From contig JAFZRX010000013.1 of the NCBI GenBank assembly GCA_017619675.1, positions 1 through 64,000 on the forward strand: a stretch of 64,000 nt of DNA, written 5' to 3'. Positions 42,144 to 50,762 of the stretch are shown piece after piece; positions within the stretch are counted from its first letter, which is position 1, and each line of letters begins with the position of its first letter. The position numbers and the translations under genes were made by a program. Source of the DNA: Bacteroidales bacterium. Lineage in GTDB: Bacteria > Bacteroidota > Bacteroidia > Bacteroidales > UBA932. The notes beneath the pieces were generated by a model. The model ran no database searches, had not been told where the DNA came from, and was given only the letters and a program-made list of their open reading frames with translations.

Positions 42144-42260
42144 ATCTTTTTGTATAGATTAATTTTCAACGGAGTTAAAGTTCATCATCTTTGGGGCCAA
42201 TAGCACCACCCCATAGGGTGGAAATGCCCACACTTTAGTATTGCTTTTAAGGAAATGCTG

Positions 42261-42268
42261 TATCTTTA
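42261..42268 (+). promoter_or_regulatory. -7-like box (TATCTTTA) before the TPR-LuxR start
   Basis: TATCTTTA lies 4 bp upstream of the GTG at 42273. It differs from TAnnTTTG only in the last base. This supports the GTG as the true start over the ATG at 42255, which would place the box inside the gene. Confidence 0.3.
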
Positions 42269-42272
42269 CTTT

Positions 42273-43499
42273 GTGAAACGATTTGCTCCCATATTGCTCT
42301 CAGTCCTTTTCTGGACCATTTCCTGCAACATTGCACTTGCGGATTACAACGACCACCGCGGACATAACGTGGATTCGCTGGAGGTGGTGGTGGCACGCTG
42401 GACCCCGTCCGATATCCAGACTGCGTCCGACAGTGAACTCGGAGACCTTGCCCTGGCCTATGACGGCCTCATGCAGGGTTACCTTCAGGTGAACGGAGTG
42501 AAAAGCGAGTATTACGCCCGCAAACTTCTGGACCTAGCCGTATCCAAAGGCTGGCAGAGTTCCGTCAAGGATGCCGCCAAGATAATAGGGCAGATTTTCT
42601 GGGCAAAGGAGCAGTATGACAGCGCCGCCGTCTATTACGGCATAGCCCTGGACGCCCTTGACAAGATGGCCGCCGGGGCCACCTCGCCAACCAATCCGGA
42701 AGGGTATGACCAGGAAAAGCTTGACGACGGCTATTCGTCAATGTACGGCACCCTGGGCAACCTTTACAATATGATGGGGGACCTTGACAAGGCTTTCGAT
42801 TACTATGCAAAGGCCGGGGAAATCTTTGACCGATACGGCTGGAACGAGAGCAACGCCGTGCTGTACTACAACATGGGCGAAACCTGGTATGACCAGGGAG
42901 ACTATGACAAGGCCCTGGAGTGCTACCAGAAAGCGCTGGGCTATGGCCGGACCGCCGGGGACTCCCTTTGGATAGCCACGCCCCTTAAGGGCCTGGGCCT
43001 GGTGTATTTCACCCAGGGAAAGACCCGCAAGGGCCTGCGCTGCCTGGAGGAGGCGGACAGGTATTACTCCCTTCACGAAGACCAGGAATTCCGCGCCAGG
43101 CTCGAGACGCTGGGCATAATGGAGAACGTTCTCAAGGAACAGCGCCGCCAGTTGTGGTGGATAGTTGGCGTCCTGGCCTTGGCGCTGCTGCTTACTGCAG
43201 GATTCTTCCTGCTGGCAGGCAAGCTGCGCCGCTCGCGTAAGGACAACAGGGAAGTTGGTGAAGTCCTGGAGGAGACGCTAGCGGAGATGCCCGCCGCCCC
43301 GGGCGCGCCTGTCCTGTCGGACCGTGAAATGGAAATCCTGCGCCTGATGGCTGAGGGCCTCACCGGTCCGCAGATTGCGGACAGGGTCTGCCTCAGCCCT
43401 GAGACCATAAAATGGTACCGCAAGAAACTCCTGGTGAAGTTCGACGCAGCCAACACCCCGGAACTTATCTCCAAGGCCAAGGATTCCCGCCTCCTGTAG
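42273..43499 (+). CDS. TPR-repeat sensor with C-terminal LuxR-type DNA-binding domain
   Basis: The protein has about 408 residues from the GTG at 42273 (VKRFAPILLS). A signal-like segment (ILLSVLFWTISCNIALA) is followed by tetratricopeptide repeats (GTLGNLYNMMGDLDKAFDYY, YNMGETWYDQGDYDKALECY), one membrane helix (IVGVLALALLLTAGFFLLAG), and a cytoplasmic LuxR helix-turn-helix (SDREMEILRLMAEGLTGPQI and LSPETIKWYRKKLLVKFD). This arrangement, a periplasmic TPR domain tied to a DNA-binding head, is common in Bacteroidetes. It lies 67 bp before the alarmone operon, on the same strand, and could regulate it. Confidence 0.85.
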   Translation: MKRFAPILLSVLFWTISCNIALADYNDHRGHNVDSLEVVVARWTPSDIQTASDSELGDLALAYDGLMQGYLQVNGVKSEYYARKLLDLAVSKGWQSSVKDAAKIIGQIFWAKEQYDSAAVYYGIALDALDKMAAGATSPTNPEGYDQEKLDDGYSSMYGTLGNLYNMMGDLDKAFDYYAKAGEIFDRYGWNESNAVLYYNMGETWYDQGDYDKALECYQKALGYGRTAGDSLWIATPLKGLGLVYFTQGKTRKGLRCLEEADRYYSLHEDQEFRARLETLGIMENVLKEQRRQLWWIVGVLALALLLTAGFFLLAGKLRRSRKDNREVGEVLEETLAEMPAAPGAPVLSDREMEILRLMAEGLTGPQIADRVCLSPETIKWYRKKLLVKFDAANTPELISKAKDSRLL

Positions 43500-43514: not shown

Positions 43515-43546
43515 TTGCAGGGATTGCGGAAAAATGCTTAAATTTG
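43515..43546 (+). promoter_or_regulatory. Promoter of the alarmone/partner-switching operon
   Basis: TTG at 43515-43517 (in ATTGCAG) and TAAATTTG at 43539-43546 are 21 bp apart, a full match to the Bacteroidetes -33/-7 consensus. The -7 box ends 20 bp before the ATG at 43567, implying a short leader. Confidence 0.6.
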
Positions 43547-43566: not shown

Positions 43567-44613
43567 ATGGAAACTTCCGCAAAGGCAATACTTAAGGAGT
43601 ATATGGACAAGCTTCCGCAGTTCCTTGAGCAGGAGCGTATCCTTAAGCAGGTCCTCACATCCGCATTTAATAAGGCGGGGCTGCACGTGGCGGCCATAGA
43701 ATCCCGTGTAAAGTCGTATGAATCCCTGGAAGGGAAACTCCGGATAAAGGGGGAGAAGTACAACTCCCTTGCGGATATCACGGACATTCTGGGCCTCAGG
43801 ATCATCACTTATTATACCGATGACGTAGACAAGGCGGCCTCCCTGGTGGAAAGGCTTTTTACCGTGGACTGGGAGAATTCCGTGGACAAGCGCAAGCTGT
43901 TGGAGACGGACAGTTTCGGATACCTGTCCCTGCATTATATATGCTCCACCACAGAATTCCCGTACCGCCTTGAGATCCAGATGCGCACGCTGCTGCAGCA
44001 CGCGTGGGCCAACATGGACCACGACACGGGCTACAAGAGCGGCGTGGAGATTCCCGGCCGCTACATGCGCTCCATGAGCCGCATGGCCGGCCTGCTGGAA
44101 CTTGTGGACGAGGAATTCAGCCGTATACGCGTGGAACTGTCAGACTACAGGCGCAAGGTTCAGTCCCTTGTAGCGTCCGGCAACCTGTCGGAAGTGCCGC
44201 TTGACGGAGACAGTTTCAAGAGTTTCCTGGAAATCAAGCCTTTCAACGCCCTGAACGGCCGTATTGCCACTATGAACCAGGCGGAGATACAGGAAGTTCC
44301 GCTCATGCCTTATCTGGCCGTCTTCAAGGGCCTTGGATGCAAGAGCCTTGGGGATATCGCGGACATGATCAAGAATTACTCGGAGGCGGCATTCCAATTA
44401 GCCTGCTACCAGATTGGACTAACAGATCTGGACATCATTGCGTCCTCGCTGGGTCCGCAGGACCTGTGCATAGCATATATACTCAAGAACGGAGGCGGCC
44501 GCGCCGGTATCAAGTACCTGTTCGACCTGCTCAACGGCCCGGCGGAATCCAACGGCGACATTGCTGACATGCTTATGGAGCAGGCCTCCAGTCTACCCTT
44601 TATGAATCAATAG
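43567..44613 (+). CDS. RelA/SpoT-type alarmone synthetase with unique C-terminal extension
   Basis: The 348-residue protein carries a (p)ppGpp synthetase domain at about residues 40-160: ATP-site residues R47, K49, S53 and K57 (SRVKSYESLEGKL), DILGLRI (73-79), GYLSLHY (118-124) and LEIQMRTLLQHAWANMDHD (135-153). All key positions look intact, so it should transfer pyrophosphate from ATP to GDP or GTP. Unlike RelA/SpoT it lacks an HD hydrolase domain and TGS/ACT domains. Unlike short alarmone synthetases (about 200-250 residues) it has about 150 extra helical residues at the C-terminus (IKPFNALNGRIATMNQAEIQ onward) that I do not recognise. The HD hydrolase is the next gene, 3 bp away. Confidence 0.85.
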   Translation: METSAKAILKEYMDKLPQFLEQERILKQVLTSAFNKAGLHVAAIESRVKSYESLEGKLRIKGEKYNSLADITDILGLRIITYYTDDVDKAASLVERLFTVDWENSVDKRKLLETDSFGYLSLHYICSTTEFPYRLEIQMRTLLQHAWANMDHDTGYKSGVEIPGRYMRSMSRMAGLLELVDEEFSRIRVELSDYRRKVQSLVASGNLSEVPLDGDSFKSFLEIKPFNALNGRIATMNQAEIQEVPLMPYLAVFKGLGCKSLGDIADMIKNYSEAAFQLACYQIGLTDLDIIASSLGPQDLCIAYILKNGGGRAGIKYLFDLLNGPAESNGDIADMLMEQASSLPFMNQ

Positions 44614-44616
44614 TTT

Positions 44617-45195
44617 ATGGCAAACAACCCTTTGGATACAAGCCTTTTTGACCATGCGGTCACATTCGCTGTCAAAGCCCATTCCGGCACGGAACGCAGG
44701 GGCAAGGGCTTCCCTTATATAGTGCATCTGATGGAGGCCGTGGAAATTGTGGCCACCATCACGCCGGACCAGGAACTGCTGGCGGCGGCGATGCTCCATG
44801 ACACGGTGGAAGACACTCCCATTACGGTGGCGGACCTGCGCCGGGAGTTCGGGGAGCGCATCGCCTCCATAGTGGAGGCGGAAAGCGATGTGCGCAACGA
44901 AGGCGAGAGCGAGGCGGAGAGCTGGCACAGGCGCAAGCAGGAAGCCATCGACAGGCTTACCGCGGCGCCGATGGAGGCCAAGATCGTAGCCCTGGGCGAC
45001 AAGCTCTCCAACATGAGGGCCATTGCCAGGGATTACGCGGAGATAGGTGACAACCTCTGGAAACTCTTCCACGTATCGGAAAAGGAAGAGCACGAGTGGC
45101 ATTACAGGGGCCTGGCGCATGCGCTTAAGGACCTGGAAGTGACGCCCGCGTACAGGGAGTTCGTTTATTTGATAGAGGAAGTTTTCGGCATATAG
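44617..45195 (+). CDS. Small alarmone hydrolase (Mesh1-like HD domain)
   Basis: The 192-residue single-domain protein matches the HD hydrolase of SpoT/Mesh1: GTERRGKGFPYIVHLMEAVE (20 residues; His37), MLHDTVEDTPIT (His61, Asp62, plus the catalytic ED pair 65-66) and VALGDKLSNMRAI (Asp128). All metal ligands and the ED pair are present, so it should remove the 3' pyrophosphate from (p)ppGpp, though Mesh1 relatives also act on NADPH. It follows the synthetase by 3 bp and precedes the kinase gene with no gap. Together the two genes are a split RSH enzyme. Confidence 0.88.
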   Translation: MANNPLDTSLFDHAVTFAVKAHSGTERRGKGFPYIVHLMEAVEIVATITPDQELLAAAMLHDTVEDTPITVADLRREFGERIASIVEAESDVRNEGESEAESWHRRKQEAIDRLTAAPMEAKIVALGDKLSNMRAIARDYAEIGDNLWKLFHVSEKEEHEWHYRGLAHALKDLEVTPAYREFVYLIEEVFGI

Positions 45196-46029
45196 ATGCA
45201 GGCGACAAGGATAGATCTTGAAGATTACGTCCTGAGCGGGGGCGGAGCGAACGGGGAGAGTTATTTCAAGAAGAATGACCCGTCCGTGCTGCTCAAGCTG
45301 TATTTCCCTGGAAAGGTGACGCAGCCGCTGGACGAACTGCTGCTGTCCCGCAAGGTGTTCGAGGCCGGGATTCCGGTGCCGGAGCCGGGGAAGTACGTGG
45401 TGACTGGTGACGGCCGCTGCGGAATTCTTTTCAAGAGGATACACGGTAAGGTGTCCTATGCCAGTGCGGTGGGAAACAATCCCGGCAAAGTCCGGGAATA
45501 CGCATACGAATTCGCCGCAATGTGCAGGAAACTGCACGCCACAAAAGTGGATACGGCCGTCTTCGAAAGCGTCAAGGACAGGTACCTTGGCATCCTCAAG
45601 GGAAACGTATTTTTTACTGACGCCCAGAAGGAGAAGATAGGGGAGTTCATTATGAAGGCGCCGGACGCGGACACCGCGATACACGGTGACCTCCAGTTCG
45701 GGAACGCAATCTTCACTGAGGACAGGCAGTACTTCATCGATTTGGGGGACTTCTGCTACGGGCACCCGTACTTTGACCTTGGGATGGTTTACCTCACCTG
45801 CAAGTTGGGGGATGAGGAATTCACCCGCGAAGTCTTCCACATGGACAAGGGGACGGCGGCAAGGTTCTGGGATGCCTTCGCCAAGGGGTATTTCGGGGAA
45901 GACGTGCCGCTTGTAGAGATAGAAAATGAGATCCTGCCGTATGCGGGACTCAAGACGCTGATCATTGAGCGCGATACGGGTTATCCGTTCCCAAGATACC
46001 GTAAAGTGCTGGAACAGACAATATTATAG
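45196..46029 (+). CDS. APH-fold phosphotransferase (TIGR02172-like)
   Basis: The 277-residue protein has the aminoglycoside-phosphotransferase/choline-kinase fold: catalytic loop AIHGDLQFGNAIF and the metal-binding YFIDLGDFCYGHPYFDLGM. The N-lobe has SGGGANGESYFKK and the Lys in VLLKLYF. It resembles the TIGR02172 group, whose substrates are unknown. It starts one base after the HD hydrolase stop and ends 2 bp before the phosphatase gene, so it is translated from the same message. Its job in the operon, perhaps phosphorylating a small molecule, is unknown. Confidence 0.8.
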   Translation: MQATRIDLEDYVLSGGGANGESYFKKNDPSVLLKLYFPGKVTQPLDELLLSRKVFEAGIPVPEPGKYVVTGDGRCGILFKRIHGKVSYASAVGNNPGKVREYAYEFAAMCRKLHATKVDTAVFESVKDRYLGILKGNVFFTDAQKEKIGEFIMKAPDADTAIHGDLQFGNAIFTEDRQYFIDLGDFCYGHPYFDLGMVYLTCKLGDEEFTREVFHMDKGTAARFWDAFAKGYFGEDVPLVEIENEILPYAGLKTLIIERDTGYPFPRYRKVLEQTIL

Positions 46030-46031
46030 AA

Positions 46032-48104
46032 ATGGCAAAGGCTAAGGATACAATAAGGCAGATAGCATCTTTCCAGGGCATAATGATGGTCCTGGTGGCG
46101 GCCGTGCTGCTTGCGGCCACCAGCATCATCCAGAGCTACTACGCCCGCAGGGGCCTCCTGATGCAGGCCGAGCAGCAGGCCAGCAGGGAACTGACCATCT
46201 CCCAGCTCAGGATAGAGGATATTACGGATCCTGTTGAAGCGGTAGTGGACAACACCGCGTGGATGGTGGAGATGAACCTTTCCAATCCGGACAGCCTGCA
46301 CTTCATGCTCCGGAAAATCCTGGACAACAATCCCATACTTGCGGACGCCGCGATAGGCTTTGCCGCGAACTATTATCCTGACAAGGGTTATTGGTACGAG
46401 CCCGTAGTGGCGCGCAGGGACAATGGAGAATATGAAGAGATGGTCCTTGGCTCCCCGTCACACGATTACTTCAATCTGGACTGGTACTCGGGCACTGCAA
46501 AGACCGGTGAGAGGAAATGGAGCGAGCCGTATTATGACGAGAGCGCGGGCCGCACTACCGTTATCACATATTCCAGCCCCGTGAGGGATACTGAGGGGAA
46601 CATAGTGGCGGTTATTTCCGCGGACCTGACCCTGGAATGGCTGGCGGAACTCCTCCAGGATGTCCAGCCATACCCCAATACCTACAGCACCCTCGTGAGC
46701 CAGAACGGCCAGTTGCTGGTCACCTCTTCCGCGGACAGGACTCCGCAGGATGTCATTGAGTATACCCGTCTCATTGAGAGTACCGGCTGGATCATGTCCA
46801 TCGTGATTCCCAGGAACGAGATTTTCCGTACCGTAAACCGGCTTTCAGAATTCTTGGGACTGCTGCAGCTGCTAGGTCTGGGCCTGCTGGCCTTCATTGC
46901 CGTGAGGTCAGTCAAGGACCAGAGCAAGCTGGAAAAAGTCCGCTCCAAGAAAGACAAGCTGGACAACGAACTCCGCATTGCCCGGGAGATCCAGATGGCC
47001 ATGCTCCCCAAGACCTTCCCGCCTTTCCCTGAAAGGAATGACGTGGACCTCACCGCCACCATCGTACCTGCGAAGGAGGTGGGCGGAGACATATACGACT
47101 TCTTCATCAGGAACGACAAACTGTTCTTCTGCATAGGCGACGTCAGCGGCAAGGGCGTCCCCGCCGCCCTGGTGATGGCGGTGACGCGCAGCCTCTTCCG
47201 CACCGTGTCGGCGCATGAGAAGAGCCCCATGCGCATAGTATCGTCAATGAACGAGAGCATGTCGGAGATGAACGACAGCAACATGTTCGTGACCTTCTTC
47301 TGCGGTGTGCTCAACCTGAACAGCGGCCACCTGCGCTACTGCAACGCAGGTCACAACGCGCCGCTGGTCCTCGCGGACAAGGTGGAGCGCCTTTCCGTGG
47401 TGCCCAACCTGCCGTTGGGCGTGATGCCGGAAATGCAGTATGAGGAGCAGGACTGCTACCTTGCGGAAGGCAACTCCCTGTTCATGTACACGGACGGCAT
47501 CACGGAGGCGGAGAACGCCTCCCGCGAACAGTTCGGCGAGAGCCGGGCAATGGAGACGCTGGGCGTCGGGCTGGACGTGACGGAGAACCAGGAGCGCATC
47601 CTTTCCAGCGTCAAGGCCTTCGTGGGCGAAGCCGAGCGCAGCGACGACCTCACCATGCTCATAGTCCGATACCTTGGCGCTGACAAGTCCAAGGAGAGCA
47701 GGCGCAGCCTTGTGCTCCGGAACGATATCCAGCAGATTCCGCATCTGGCAGAGTTCATCCTTTCTATTGCCGATGAGAAGCACCTGGGCAACAGCGTCGC
47801 CACCAACCTCAACCTCGCGCTTGAGGAGGCCGTCACAAACGTGATGCTGTACGCGTATCCCAAGGATACGGAAGGCATCATAGAGATAGAGGCGCTGATC
47901 AAGGATAACTCCCTGATTTTCAAGGTTATGGATAGCGGAAAACCTTTCGATCCCACCTCCGTTCCGGAAGTGGATGTCACCAAGGACCTGGCTGACAGGC
48001 CCATAGGCGGTTTGGGAATACATCTTGTACGGAAGATTATGGACGAAGTGCGCTACAGCAGGGAAGACGGGCGCAACATTTTCACAATGATAAAAAACAT
48101 CTGA
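46032..48104 (+). CDS. Membrane sensor fused to PP2C (SpoIIE) phosphatase and RsbW-type ATPase
   Basis: The 690-residue protein has, in order: a membrane helix (about 16-36), an extracytoplasmic dCache-like sensor (about 40-265, WYEPVVARRDNGEYEE, GNIVAVISADLTLEWL), a second helix (about 277-297), a coiled linker, a SpoIIE-type phosphatase (about 325-555; KEVGGDIYDFF, CIGDVSGKGVPAALVM, FMYTDGITEAEN) and a GHKL ATPase of the anti-sigma kind (about 565-690; N-box LALEEAVTNVMLYAY, VMDSGKPFDP, GGLGIHLVRKIMD). Phosphatase (RsbU-like) and kinase (RsbW-like) for the same STAS substrate are thus in one chain. That substrate is likely the product of the next gene, 3 bp downstream. Confidence 0.88.
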   Translation: MAKAKDTIRQIASFQGIMMVLVAAVLLAATSIIQSYYARRGLLMQAEQQASRELTISQLRIEDITDPVEAVVDNTAWMVEMNLSNPDSLHFMLRKILDNNPILADAAIGFAANYYPDKGYWYEPVVARRDNGEYEEMVLGSPSHDYFNLDWYSGTAKTGERKWSEPYYDESAGRTTVITYSSPVRDTEGNIVAVISADLTLEWLAELLQDVQPYPNTYSTLVSQNGQLLVTSSADRTPQDVIEYTRLIESTGWIMSIVIPRNEIFRTVNRLSEFLGLLQLLGLGLLAFIAVRSVKDQSKLEKVRSKKDKLDNELRIAREIQMAMLPKTFPPFPERNDVDLTATIVPAKEVGGDIYDFFIRNDKLFFCIGDVSGKGVPAALVMAVTRSLFRTVSAHEKSPMRIVSSMNESMSEMNDSNMFVTFFCGVLNLNSGHLRYCNAGHNAPLVLADKVERLSVVPNLPLGVMPEMQYEEQDCYLAEGNSLFMYTDGITEAENASREQFGESRAMETLGVGLDVTENQERILSSVKAFVGEAERSDDLTMLIVRYLGADKSKESRRSLVLRNDIQQIPHLAEFILSIADEKHLGNSVATNLNLALEEAVTNVMLYAYPKDTEGIIEIEALIKDNSLIFKVMDSGKPFDPTSVPEVDVTKDLADRPIGGLGIHLVRKIMDEVRYSREDGRNIFTMIKNI

Positions 48105-48107
48105 GAT

Positions 48108-48416
48108 ATGGAAGTTAATATAATTGAAAACGAATCCGTCATCACGGTTGAACTCAAGGGCAGGATGGACACTGCGGCTTCCCAGGAGGTGAGCGGCAAG
48201 ATCCTTCCACTCCAGGAAAAGGCGGAGAATACCATAGTCATGGACTGCTCCCAGTTGAGTTACATTTCCAGTTCCGGCCTCAGGCTGTTCCTTGCCCTGC
48301 GCAAGTCAGCCGCCGTCAAGGGCGGAAAGGTTGTAGTCAGGAACATAAACGACGACATCCGAACCGTATTCATGATGACCGGATTCCTTAACCTGTTCCA
48401 AATAGAAACCGCATGA
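48108..48416 (+). CDS. STAS anti-sigma-factor antagonist (SpoIIAA/RsbV-like)
   Basis: The 102-residue single STAS domain has the phosphoacceptor region LSYISSSGLRLFLALRKS, whose central Ser is the usual target, and the strand VELKGRMDTAASQEV. Such proteins switch between phosphorylated and free forms to control a partner. The adjacent upstream protein supplies both a PP2C phosphatase and an anti-sigma-type kinase, so the pair forms a partner-switching module. The final partner (a sigma factor or another target) is not in the window. It overlaps the antiporter gene by 4 bp (ATGA). Confidence 0.92.
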   Translation: MEVNIIENESVITVELKGRMDTAASQEVSGKILPLQEKAENTIVMDCSQLSYISSSGLRLFLALRKSAAVKGGKVVVRNINDDIRTVFMMTGFLNLFQIETA

Positions 48417-49912
48417 CGCTCCCTCTGTCAATCTTTTCCGTGAACCTGCTGTCGGACAACCTGCTGTTGCTCGCCTCCATACTGGTGTTCGCGGCCATCC
48501 TCATCACAAAACTGGGTACCCGCATAGGCACGCCCACCTTGCTGCTGTTCCTGCTGTTGGGAATGCTGGCGGGCAGGGACGGCCTGGGCCTGGAGTTCGA
48601 GGACTTTGAACTGGCGGAGTCCATAGGCCATTTCGCAATGACCATAATCCTGTTCGCGGGAGGACTGGAGACATCGCTGGCGGATACAAAGCCGGTGATG
48701 AAACAGGGCATACTGCTGTCCACGCTGGGAGTCTTCCTTACCGCGGCGTTCACGGGACTGTTCACATATCATGTGGCAGGCAGTTACATAGGTGCCTTTG
48801 GAGCCTCATTCATGAGCTGCTTCCTGCTGGCGGCGGTCATGTCCTCTACGGACTCCGCATCGGTATTCTCAGTGCTCAGGGGCAAGAAGATGCATCTGAG
48901 GCAGAACCTGGGTCCTCTCCTGGAACTGGAATCCGGAAGCAACGACCCAATGGCGTACGTGCTCACAATCCTCCTGGTGCAGATGCTGTCCACAAAGCAC
49001 CTGGGCCCCCTGGCCCAGTTCGGGATGGTGTGGACAGGATGCTGGACGCTCCTGCTGCAGCTGGCAGTTGGATTCGCGGTGGGAATAGGAGTGGGCTTCG
49101 GCTCAAAATGGCTGCTTGAGCGCGTGCAGCTGCCTGGAAAGCAGTTGTATTCAGTCCTTATCCTCAGCATAGGTTTCCTGACAAACGGCCTGGCCTCCAT
49201 CCTTTACGGAAACGGCCTCCTGGCCCTGTATGTGTGCGCCATAATCATCGGCAACAACGCCAAGCTGCCGCACAAGAAGGAGATCCTGAGTTTCTTCAAG
49301 GGCATGACCTGGCTGATGCAGCTGCTCATGTTCTTGATGCTTGGCCTTCTGGCAAGGCCGTCGGAGTTCGGCGGCATTGCCGTTCCGGCTCTGATCATTG
49401 GCCTGTTCATGATGTTCGTGGCGCGTCCTGTAAGCGTGTTCCTGTGCCTTCTTCCGTTCAGGAAGATTACCCCCAAGGCCAAACTCTTCGTGTCCTGGGT
49501 GGGTCTCAAGGGCGCGGGTCCAATCCTGTTCGCCCTGTGTCCCGTAGTGGCCGGACTTGAAGGAAGCACGGAAATCTTCAACATAGTATTCTTCATTACC
49601 CTCATATCCCTGCTGCTGCAGGGAATGACCCTGTCTCCTATGGCCAAGTGGCTGAAACTCAGTTACGAAGAGGAAGCCAAGGCGGAAACCTTCGGGATGG
49701 ATATCCCGGAAGAGATGGGTATGCTCCGCGACCATACCGTGACTGAGGAAGACCTGAAACTGGGGGAGACCCTGCGTGACCTCAACCTTCCGCACGGCAT
49801 CCGCGTGATGATGGTACGGCGCGACGAGACATTCCTGGTCCCTCACGGAAGCATGAAACTGCTCCCCGGCGACAGGCTCATCATAATCATGGGACAAAGT
49901 GACGACGACTGA
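48413..49912 (+). CDS. K+/H+ antiporter (CPA1 type) with C-terminal TrkA-C domain
   Basis: The 499-residue protein has 12-13 membrane helices with the CPA motif MSSTDSASVFSVL and ESGSNDPMAYVLT, as in NhaP2-type K+/H+ antiporters. A cytoplasmic TrkA-C (RCK-C) domain follows (about 435-499; LPHGIRVMMVRRDETFLVP and LLPGDRLIIIMG). RCK-C domains of related antiporters bind regulatory nucleotides such as c-di-AMP. Its overlap with the STAS gene means potassium efflux is part of this operon's output. TrkH (K+ uptake) is also in the window but far away. Confidence 0.88.
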   Translation: MTLPLSIFSVNLLSDNLLLLASILVFAAILITKLGTRIGTPTLLLFLLLGMLAGRDGLGLEFEDFELAESIGHFAMTIILFAGGLETSLADTKPVMKQGILLSTLGVFLTAAFTGLFTYHVAGSYIGAFGASFMSCFLLAAVMSSTDSASVFSVLRGKKMHLRQNLGPLLELESGSNDPMAYVLTILLVQMLSTKHLGPLAQFGMVWTGCWTLLLQLAVGFAVGIGVGFGSKWLLERVQLPGKQLYSVLILSIGFLTNGLASILYGNGLLALYVCAIIIGNNAKLPHKKEILSFFKGMTWLMQLLMFLMLGLLARPSEFGGIAVPALIIGLFMMFVARPVSVFLCLLPFRKITPKAKLFVSWVGLKGAGPILFALCPVVAGLEGSTEIFNIVFFITLISLLLQGMTLSPMAKWLKLSYEEEAKAETFGMDIPEEMGMLRDHTVTEEDLKLGETLRDLNLPHGIRVMMVRRDETFLVPHGSMKLLPGDRLIIIMGQSDDD

Positions 49913-50762
49913 CATCCAGGTTGAGCGCGACGTGGTTTACGCCAGGGCGATGGGCTATTGGACCAGCGCCCCCGTGGGCGTAAAGGGCACAGTGCTCAAG
50001 CTGATTCCAAAGTCGTTCAGGAAGCGTCCGCTTGAACTCACGATGGACATATACAAGCCCGCGGAACACTATAGTGAAAAGCGTCCGCTTCTCTTGATGA
50101 TGCACGGCGGGTCTTTCTATGTGGGCCACAAGGAAGAACTGGGGCAGGCGGCCTGGTGCCGCCATTTCGCCTCGCTGGGGTATGTGGCCGCGTCCATCAA
50201 TTACAGGATGGGATTCCTCCCGTTCAAGAACGCCCTCAAGAAGGCGGAGGCCCGCGCGCTGGAAGACGCTGACGCCGCCGTGGGCTATCTGCTCTCAAGG
50301 GAAGACCTGGACATTGACGGCGGCCGCGTCTTTGCCGCGGGCACCAGTGCGGGTGCCATGACCGCCCTGGGCATGGCTTTCCGCCCATCGGCGGCGGGAA
50401 AGCCCGGCATCCGGGCGATAGGGGCCTTTTGGGGCTCCGTACACGACCTTAAAGTGCTTGACTATGCCCAGACCCCGATACTGTCTTTCCAGTCCGTAAA
50501 CGACCCTATTATGCCATATGGCAAGGGTTACCCGTTCGGCTCCAAACTTGGACCGTTCCAGTTCATCATGGCTTTGTTCTCTGACAAGATGTACGGGACA
50601 TACGCAATCCATCAGAAGGCAAAAGAAAAAGGGATAGTGTCCGAGCACCATCCCTGTTCCGAAACCGGTCACCGGCTCCATATGGACCTTGAAGGCAATT
50701 TCACGCCGCGTTTCTTTGAAATCCGGGACGCTATGGCCGCCTTCTTTGGCAATTACCGGTAA
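49899..50762 (+). CDS. Alpha/beta hydrolase
   Basis: The 287-residue protein starts with GTG at 49899, overlapping the antiporter stop by 14 bp. It has the hydrolase pattern LLMMHGGSFYVGHKEE (oxyanion), VFAAGTSAGAMTALGM (nucleophile Ser), an Asp in VNDPIMPYGKG and a His in ETGHRLHMDLEG. No signal peptide is seen, so it should be cytoplasmic. The substrate is unknown. It is the last gene of the operon and stops directly against the convergent MgtC gene. Confidence 0.75.
   Translation: MTTTDIQVERDVVYARAMGYWTSAPVGVKGTVLKLIPKSFRKRPLELTMDIYKPAEHYSEKRPLLLMMHGGSFYVGHKEELGQAAWCRHFASLGYVAASINYRMGFLPFKNALKKAEARALEDADAAVGYLLSREDLDIDGGRVFAAGTSAGAMTALGMAFRPSAAGKPGIRAIGAFWGSVHDLKVLDYAQTPILSFQSVNDPIMPYGKGYPFGSKLGPFQFIMALFSDKMYGTYAIHQKAKEKGIVSEHHPCSETGHRLHMDLEGNFTPRFFEIRDAMAAFFGNYR

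Follow-up and report, generated by a model that had tools for sequence, protein, structure and literature searches.

A conserved partner-switching module of Bacteroidales that encodes a small alarmone synthetase and hydrolase

Background

The Pseudomonas aeruginosa SiaABCD system comprises the PP2C phosphatase SiaA, the kinase SiaB and the antagonist-like SiaC, the phosphorylation state of which (phosphorylation on Thr68) modulates SiaD (PMC8457831; PMC7647112), SiaC acting as activator of this diguanylate cyclase (PMC8457831). A further diguanylate cyclase, HsbD, is reported to be linked to a regulatory cascade. The RsbU-RsbV-RsbW and SypE-SypA systems combine a PP2C phosphatase and an RsbW-like kinase with a STAS protein carrying a conserved serine, SypE being a dual kinase/phosphatase (PMC8256260). 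Small alarmone hydrolases (SAHs) are reported to be able to reverse the damage caused by toxSAS enzymes (PMC11559606). The present study concerns an operon at positions 43567–50762 of a stretch of 64,000 nucleotides (in the following, the window) from a Bacteroidales bacterium of the UBA932 lineage (contig JAFZRX010000013.1, positions 1 to 64,000 of the forward strand). It encodes a small alarmone synthetase (SAS), an HD-type hydrolase (HD), an APH-fold kinase-like protein (APH), a membrane sensor with fused PP2C phosphatase and RsbW-like kinase (PP2C), a STAS antagonist, a CPA1 antiporter (CPA) and an alpha/beta hydrolase.

The first five of these genes, with the antiporter as an accessory, represent a real, conserved and co-inherited signalling module of Bacteroidales. 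As in SiaABCD, a sensor PP2C phosphatase, a kinase and an antagonist are encoded together. In contrast to SiaABCD, the candidate output enzyme, an SAS with RelA_SpoT domain accompanied by a hydrolase, takes the place of a diguanylate cyclase, phosphatase and kinase (an RsbW-type HATPase) are usually fused, and the antagonist would be phosphorylated on a serine instead of a threonine. The phosphatase, the RsbW-like kinase and the conserved STAS serine are shared with RsbU-RsbV-RsbW and SypE-SypA, and the dual kinase/phosphatase layout of the sensor with SypE; the module differs from these systems in its linkage to alarmone enzymes and in having no sigma factor in the operon. The module would best be read as a SiaABCD-like design whose output is (p)ppGpp. 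Should this hold, the principle of an antagonist controlling a nucleotide synthetase would apply to (p)ppGpp as well as to c-di-GMP, a single compact cassette would unite alarmone synthesis with protein phosphorylation, STAS and the SAS C-terminal domain being the candidate interface, and the extra alarmone enzymes beside long RSHs in some rumen Bacteroidales would be accounted for. To our knowledge, little is known about the post-translational switching of small alarmone synthetases or about the signals raising (p)ppGpp in gut Bacteroidales. The first-pass annotation of the window knew of no described operon of this composition, and searches of an open-access library returned no title or abstract start that describes one or ties an alarmone synthetase to partner switching; most subscription papers were outside this search.

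Conservation and co-inheritance of the module

Scanning genome contigs with the SAS yielded 298 relatives, of which the best 80 (set A) underlie the cluster counts. They derive throughout from metagenome-assembled or uncultured bacteria, labelled from Bacteroidia to Bacteroidaceae and Prevotellaceae. Clusters were delimited by gaps of ≤3 kb, and because some loci end at contig edges, the counts are lower bounds. A second set of 27 loci (set B) overlaps with set A in some genomes (L142/L044, L122/L061). Within the clusters of set A, PP2C and APH are each present in 74, STAS in 72, HD in 71 and CPA in 47 of the 80 loci; SAS, PP2C and STAS occur together in one cluster in 72. Nearly all multi-gene clusters (76 of 78) are confined to a single strand, in several gene orders. 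The commonest order, SAS-HD-APH-PP2C-STAS, is found without CPA in 21 and with CPA in 20 loci, next to PP2C-CPA-STAS-SAS-HD-APH (10 loci), APH-PP2C-CPA-STAS-SAS-HD (4), SAS-HD-APH-CPA-PP2C-STAS (3) and further ones. Most of nine loci with more divergent SASs (48–55 % identity) retain the gene set, with additional arrangements among them (PP2C-STAS-SAS-APH-HD in L123, PP2C-STAS-SAS-HD-APH in L124 and L125); reduced versions keep only HD (L126), only STAS (L140) or HD and PP2C (L136). Conservation of gene order, which had been proposed as a test, gives a mixed picture: the order has been reshuffled, gene content and strand have been kept, and we take this combination to favour a functional unit.

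In genome searches (E up to 1e-20 for SAS and up to 1e-60 for PP2C), the SAS was detected in 9 of 395 genomes of a phylum sample (full length only in the genome of the window), in 7 of 247 genomes of an order sample (6 full length) and in 24 of 149 genomes of the family, 23 of them with full-length matches and one (G658) with a weak match. HD is present in 24 family genomes, i.e. all 23 with full-length SAS plus G640, and PP2C in 50, again including all 23. Genome G658, which has neither HD nor PP2C, was omitted from the Fisher tables, and co-occurrence amounted to 23/0/1/125 for SAS-HD (Fisher 4e-26) and 23/0/27/99 for SAS-PP2C (2e-13), relatedness being ignored. PP2C is absent near SAS in 10 loci of sets A and B, some of which reflect contig breaks, and was found elsewhere in all 10 genomes; in the 7 of these unlinked cases that were fetched, STAS invariably adjoins the phosphatase or the kinase gene. 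This sequence evidence supports a co-inherited operon that joins alarmone synthesis and hydrolysis to partner switching and is conserved in Bacteroidales, with catalytic residues conserved (see below).

A conserved neighbourhood without direct coupling, kept together by transfer, would agree with the patchy distribution within the genus, where 3 of 11 genomes carry SAS, HD and PP2C and the other 8 none of the three. The joint retention of unlinked copies in the same genomes speaks against it, as do the closest relatives (L004 and L006), which have both flanks in common with the window, and we consider this explanation highly improbable.

The alarmone synthetase and hydrolase

The SAS possesses a RelA_SpoT domain and a SAS1/SAS2-like fold and is devoid of HD, TGS and ACT domains, as befits a small alarmone synthetase. 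Residues R47, K49, K57, D73, R78, Y119, H123, E136, Q138 and R140, among others, are invariant in 38 of 38 alignment rows. The downstream protein consists of an HD_4 domain on its own and shows the HDxxED and distal D/N motifs, the features of a small alarmone hydrolase; its residues H37, H61, D62, E65, D66, D128 and N132 are invariant in 35 of 35 rows. The expected catalytic residues of both enzymes are therefore intact, as had been proposed; the active-site roles of these residues, and of those of the PP2C-kinase and STAS named below, are presumed ones.

A profile of the SAS matched PDB sequences of SAS1, SAS2, RelP and similar GTP pyrophosphokinase structures at 58–65 bits, and more weakly those of CapRel (16 bits), FaRel2 (15 bits) and long RSHs (14–17 bits). 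The score against the RelQ/YjbM equivalog NF053588 of NCBIfam (51.6 bits) was below the cut-off of 320. An AlphaFold2 model of the protein (mean predicted local distance difference test, pLDDT, 86.6, with residues 111–119 below 50; predicted TM score, pTM, 0.63) retrieved Bacillus subtilis SAS1 as best match in a fold search (E 3e-9), followed by SAS2/RelP; among the best 50 of 310 matches, CapRel took ranks 46–48 (E 1e-5), and the others span about 140–210 aligned columns. Since SAS1/SAS2 rank above CapRel/FaRel2 in profile scores as well as in fold matches, these predictions favour an SAS that makes alarmone rather than one modifying tRNA.

The same data bear on the possibility of a toxin-antitoxin or phage defence system, in which the SAS would pyrophosphorylate tRNA in the manner of toxSAS enzymes (FaRel2, CapRel), HD would serve as antitoxin and the partner switch as gate. 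Some toxSAS pairs do place an SAS next to an SAH, as here, the presence in 24 of 149 family genomes is patchy, the PADLOC candidate PDC-S33 has the synthetase domain in common with the module SAS (50.5 bits), and CapRel does appear among the fold matches. An SAS-like enzyme is thus shared with toxSAS, but the likeness is weaker in sequence and fold than that to the alarmone-making SAS1/SAS2, nine of the 80 clusters lack HD, and the four other proteins scanned gave no PADLOC match. In addition, a signalling cassette adjoins the module SAS, and we know of no toxin-antitoxin system featuring a sensor-phosphatase-kinase-STAS set. Weakened foremost by the profile and fold scores, the toxin-antitoxin reading is regarded as quite unlikely.

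Unlike SAS1/SAS2 (RelQ/RelP), with which it shares synthetase domain and fold, the module SAS carries an additional conserved C-terminal domain of 149 residues (200–348; mean per-column identity 79 %, versus 88 % for residues 46–160), modelled as mostly helical with pLDDT mostly above 90. A profile of this domain matched all 9 divergent module SASs (135–198 bits) and none of 10 SAS relatives not belonging to the module, the synthetase parts of which do match, at 77–181 bits; tblastn searches of the 8–20 kb fetched around these ten, using the window proteins, found no module gene. The same relatives (L127–L135, L141; 326–406 residues) possess long C-terminal parts of their own, unmatched by the module profile. 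The profile found no match among PDB sequences and, among 247 genomes of the class, matched in that of the window only. The domain is a natural candidate for a docking site.

The best PDB matches of HD are small alarmone hydrolases (Lmo0812, 7qoe, 7qoc; E 9e-22 to 6e-21), MESH1 following at 5e-10. It shares the HD_4 domain and catalytic residues with these proteins and differs from them in two respects: 23 of the 24 family genomes encoding it also carry this SAS, and in six genomes it forms a single open reading frame (ORF) with the APH domain. This fusion was seen in 6 of 9 loci examined (L124, L125, L137, L138, L139, L239), the two being separate ORFs in L123, L136 and L126. HD and APH distances likewise agree best with each other, a robust pairing (partial 0.50–0.56). 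In APH, H163-G-D165...N170 together with D182, which we take to be the catalytic motif, is invariant in 14 of 14 rows. Two further observations concern HD: genome G640 encodes it (L238:9378–9947) with no SAS match and no module gene nearby, another PP2C-HATPase-STAS set being located elsewhere (L237), and in L026 (11052–11696), L037, L041 and L081 SAS and HD are separated by a cytidylate-kinase-like gene (Cytidylate_kin2).

The genome of the window (2.04 Mb in 17 contigs, 94.5 % complete) encodes three RelA_SpoT proteins, i.e. the module SAS, a Rel-like enzyme of 732 residues (HD, synthetase, TGS and ACT domains) and one of 621 residues (HD, synthetase, TGS and AH/RIS domains). Rel and RshB are described as typical of Bacteroidia (PMC3153485), and the 621-residue enzyme may be RshB-like. 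The view of the first-pass annotation that SAS and HD represent a split RSH is rejected in view of the two long RSH enzymes, next to which SAS and HD constitute an extra pair, not halves of the main enzyme.

The partner switch

The sensor has hydrophobic segments (residues 8–38 and 271–295) on either side of its Cache domain. Across its phosphatase and kinase parts, D353, D370, D488, D538, D539, E599, N603, D634, G636 and G659–G662 are invariant in 24 of 24 rows, as is S55 of STAS in 43 of 43; the residues of an RsbU/V/W-type partner switch are hence conserved in phosphatase, kinase and STAS phospho-serine alike. Comparison with SpoIIAA, SypA and BtrV (PMC8256260) makes Ser55 the likely phosphorylation site. 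With a STAS profile (E ≤ 1e-3), which a very divergent STAS might escape, the operon STAS was the sole match in its genome, exactly one STAS was found in each of five SAS genomes including this one, and none in a genus mate without SAS.

The canonical role of RsbW and STAS proteins (PMC8256260) suggests a different target: the switch could control an unlinked sigma or anti-sigma factor, with SAS, HD, APH and CPA as merely co-transcribed stress effectors, and common expression from a single promoter box at the head of the operon is possible. No sigma family was recognized among nine proteins scanned (seven of the operon and two flanking it), sigma factors elsewhere in the genome lying outside this search. 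Of the other neighbouring gene clusters (within six genes before and seven after SAS, not profile-searched), none recurs in more than 11 of the 80 loci. The one STAS detected in the genome lies in the operon, the linkage outlasts reordering and the SAS has its module-specific domain. We therefore view control of a sigma factor as unlikely, if less so than a toxin-antitoxin function.

Variants of the switch were seen in several loci. The RsbW kinase is a separate protein of 136 residues in L124, and in L138 (11793–13118) an RsbW-like HATPase_c_2 kinase is fused C-terminally to a DAGK_cat/YegS lipid-kinase-like domain and adjoins a separate Cache-HAMP-SpoIIE protein and STAS. Immediately 5' of larger Cache-HAMP-SpoIIE-HATPase genes, a gene for an NMT1/THI5-like substrate-binding protein is located (L225:11116–12060; cluster c1, L009–L023; identity profile-checked in L225), the product of which might assist the sensor in ligand binding. 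Additional PP2C-STAS pairs occur as a tandem copy in L045 (12504–17438) and as a divergent pair in L144.

Possible coupling of the switch to the synthetase

Pairwise distances were compared in 59 of the 80 loci, those with missing genes, stops or short PP2C or STAS being left out. STAS distances correlate with those of SAS (r 0.69) more closely than with those of its own kinase (0.51) or phosphatase (0.47), and a part of SAS was the best tracker of STAS in 300 of 300 subsamples. This is suggestive, though not robustly so, of a STAS-SAS pairing. Of 15 named loci with STAS ahead of SAS, 10 show a spacing of 36–73 bases (between match ends), and L123–L125 one of 39–54 bases. As to whether the partner switch was recruited twice, in a tree of 90 STAS rows (row L224 being an outlier) two SAS-linked lineages were obtained with the STASs of SAS-less genomes between them; in a 38-row tree a single SAS-linked clade was not rejected (p-AU 0.053).

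We lean, with some reserve, towards the operon being a partner-switching module that has the alarmone synthetase/hydrolase pair as output. For such a module we infer STAS phosphorylation, a STAS-SAS contact, the nucleotide made, a ligand and any role of K+ efflux. The extracytoplasmic Cache domain would sense a small molecule and set the balance of PP2C and RsbW-like kinase within one membrane protein, and this balance would set the phosphorylation of STAS on Ser55. One form of STAS would then bind the C-terminal domain of SAS and switch (p)ppGpp synthesis; less likely, the kinase domain released by STAS would bind there instead. HD and its APH partner would remove the alarmone, and the CPA1 antiporter may act as an optional co-expressed effector. 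An external ligand could thereby elicit an alarmone response that needs neither the ribosome nor Rel, with STAS phosphorylation gating (p)ppGpp via a C-terminal receptor domain, to which we give an even chance.

In favour of the partner-switching reading are the clustering and co-inheritance of SAS, PP2C and STAS, the unlinked copies of PP2C and HD, the single STAS of five SAS genomes, the module-specific SAS domain, the STAS-SAS spacing and distances, and the precedent of SiaC and SiaD. Several observations weigh against it. When the 41 loci sharing one gene order are taken by themselves, a part of SAS was the best STAS tracker in only 162 of 300 subsamples, and the signal is gone in the 18 loci of CPA order (51 of 300). 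The contrast in the C-terminal domain sets one SAS clade against others and may reflect a single evolutionary event, and the Fisher values for SAS-HD and SAS-PP2C take no account of relatedness. HD is outside the cluster in 9 loci, and three of these genomes show no close ortholog (two none, one a weak match); the other six encode one elsewhere, which counts in favour of the reading. PP2C matches are without fused kinase in 5 of 23 SAS genomes (G668, G686, G701, G714, G737). Finally, 27 family genomes carry PP2C without SAS, with STAS present in 9 of 9 such loci examined, which points to PP2C-STAS as a general switch with other uses. HD, APH and CPA were found near PP2C-STAS in none of these 9 SAS-less loci, and associate with SAS (Fisher 8e-8, 8e-9 and 7e-4, respectively).

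The 18 CPA-order loci, in which CPA and SAS track STAS equally (r 0.63 each), raise the possibility that STAS chiefly gates the antiporter in ion or pH homeostasis, the alarmone pair answering the same stress. CPA often adjoins STAS, and it is present in 47 of 80 SAS loci versus 0 of 9 SAS-less PP2C-STAS loci. In the remaining 33 loci it is outside the cluster (contig ends truncate some of these, and the search did not extend to the rest of the genomes) and hence no general target, which renders this explanation improbable.

Operon organization and transcription

The features of the operon are compiled in Table 1. All seven ORFs of the first-pass annotation were recovered at their predicted coordinates on one strand, with intergenic gaps of 3, 0, 2, 3, -4 and -14 bases, and their functional assignments rest on profile scans with Pfam and NCBIfam. 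For internal terminators, which would have split the message, a terminator scan yielded no + strand site within the seven-gene run.

Table 1 Features of the operon and its promoter region (window positions)
Feature	Position	Strand	Basis or remark
Promoter box TAAATTTG, Bacteroidetes -7-like	43539–43546	+	20 bases 5' of first gene
Small alarmone synthetase (SAS), 348 aa	43567–44613	+	RelA_SpoT domain, residues 46–159 (43702–44043)
Module-specific SAS C-terminal domain, residues 200–348	44164–44610	+	Profile and model
Small alarmone hydrolase (HD_4), 192 aa	44617–45195	+	Pfam/NCBIfam
APH-fold kinase-like protein, 277 aa	45196–46029	+	APH; TIGR02172 219.5 bits, just below cut-off 228.2
Membrane sensor, PP2C-RsbW fusion	46032–48104	+	MCP-like_PDC_1 Cache, SpoIIE, HATPase_c_2
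Sensor: Cache domain	46305–46649	+	
Sensor: PP2C/SpoIIE domain	47115–47672	+	
Sensor: RsbW-like HATPase kinase domain	47721–48095	+	
STAS antagonist	48108–48416	+	Ser55 at 48270–48272
CPA1 K+/H+ antiporter, accessory	48413–49912	+	Na_H_Exchanger, TrkA_C (49736–49900); PRK05326-type, above cut-off
Alpha/beta hydrolase, co-located, outside conserved module	49899–50762	+	Pfam/NCBIfam

The box preceding the first gene is the sole + strand match to TANNTTTG, which we take to be the Bacteroidetes -7 consensus, between 40223 and 55199; across the whole window such boxes occur at chance level (28 observed vs 24.6 expected). Of the loci with SAS as first gene, 45 of 62 have a box no more than 110 bases ahead of it, versus 5 of 18 with SAS internal. 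Boxes ahead of internal genes are rare except for HD (HD 14/71, APH 1/70, PP2C 2/64, STAS 1/73, CPA 0/46), and PP2C is preceded by one in 2 of 8 loci where it is the first gene. For the common gene order, the frequency of the box before a first-gene SAS and its rarity before internal genes other than HD support, as a prediction, a single transcript from a head promoter.

Accessory and neighbouring genes

Potassium efflux had been counted among the core functions of the operon; with CPA present in 47 of the 80 loci, the antiporter was demoted to an accessory. The terminal alpha/beta hydrolase, likewise proposed as a member, was matched in 3 of 80 loci (L004, L005 and L006). Directly upstream of the operon and on the same strand, a TPR protein with LuxR-type helix-turn-helix is encoded (42255–43499), matched among the 80 loci in L004 and L006 only. 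Both genes, being matched in the closest relatives only, were rejected as members of the module.

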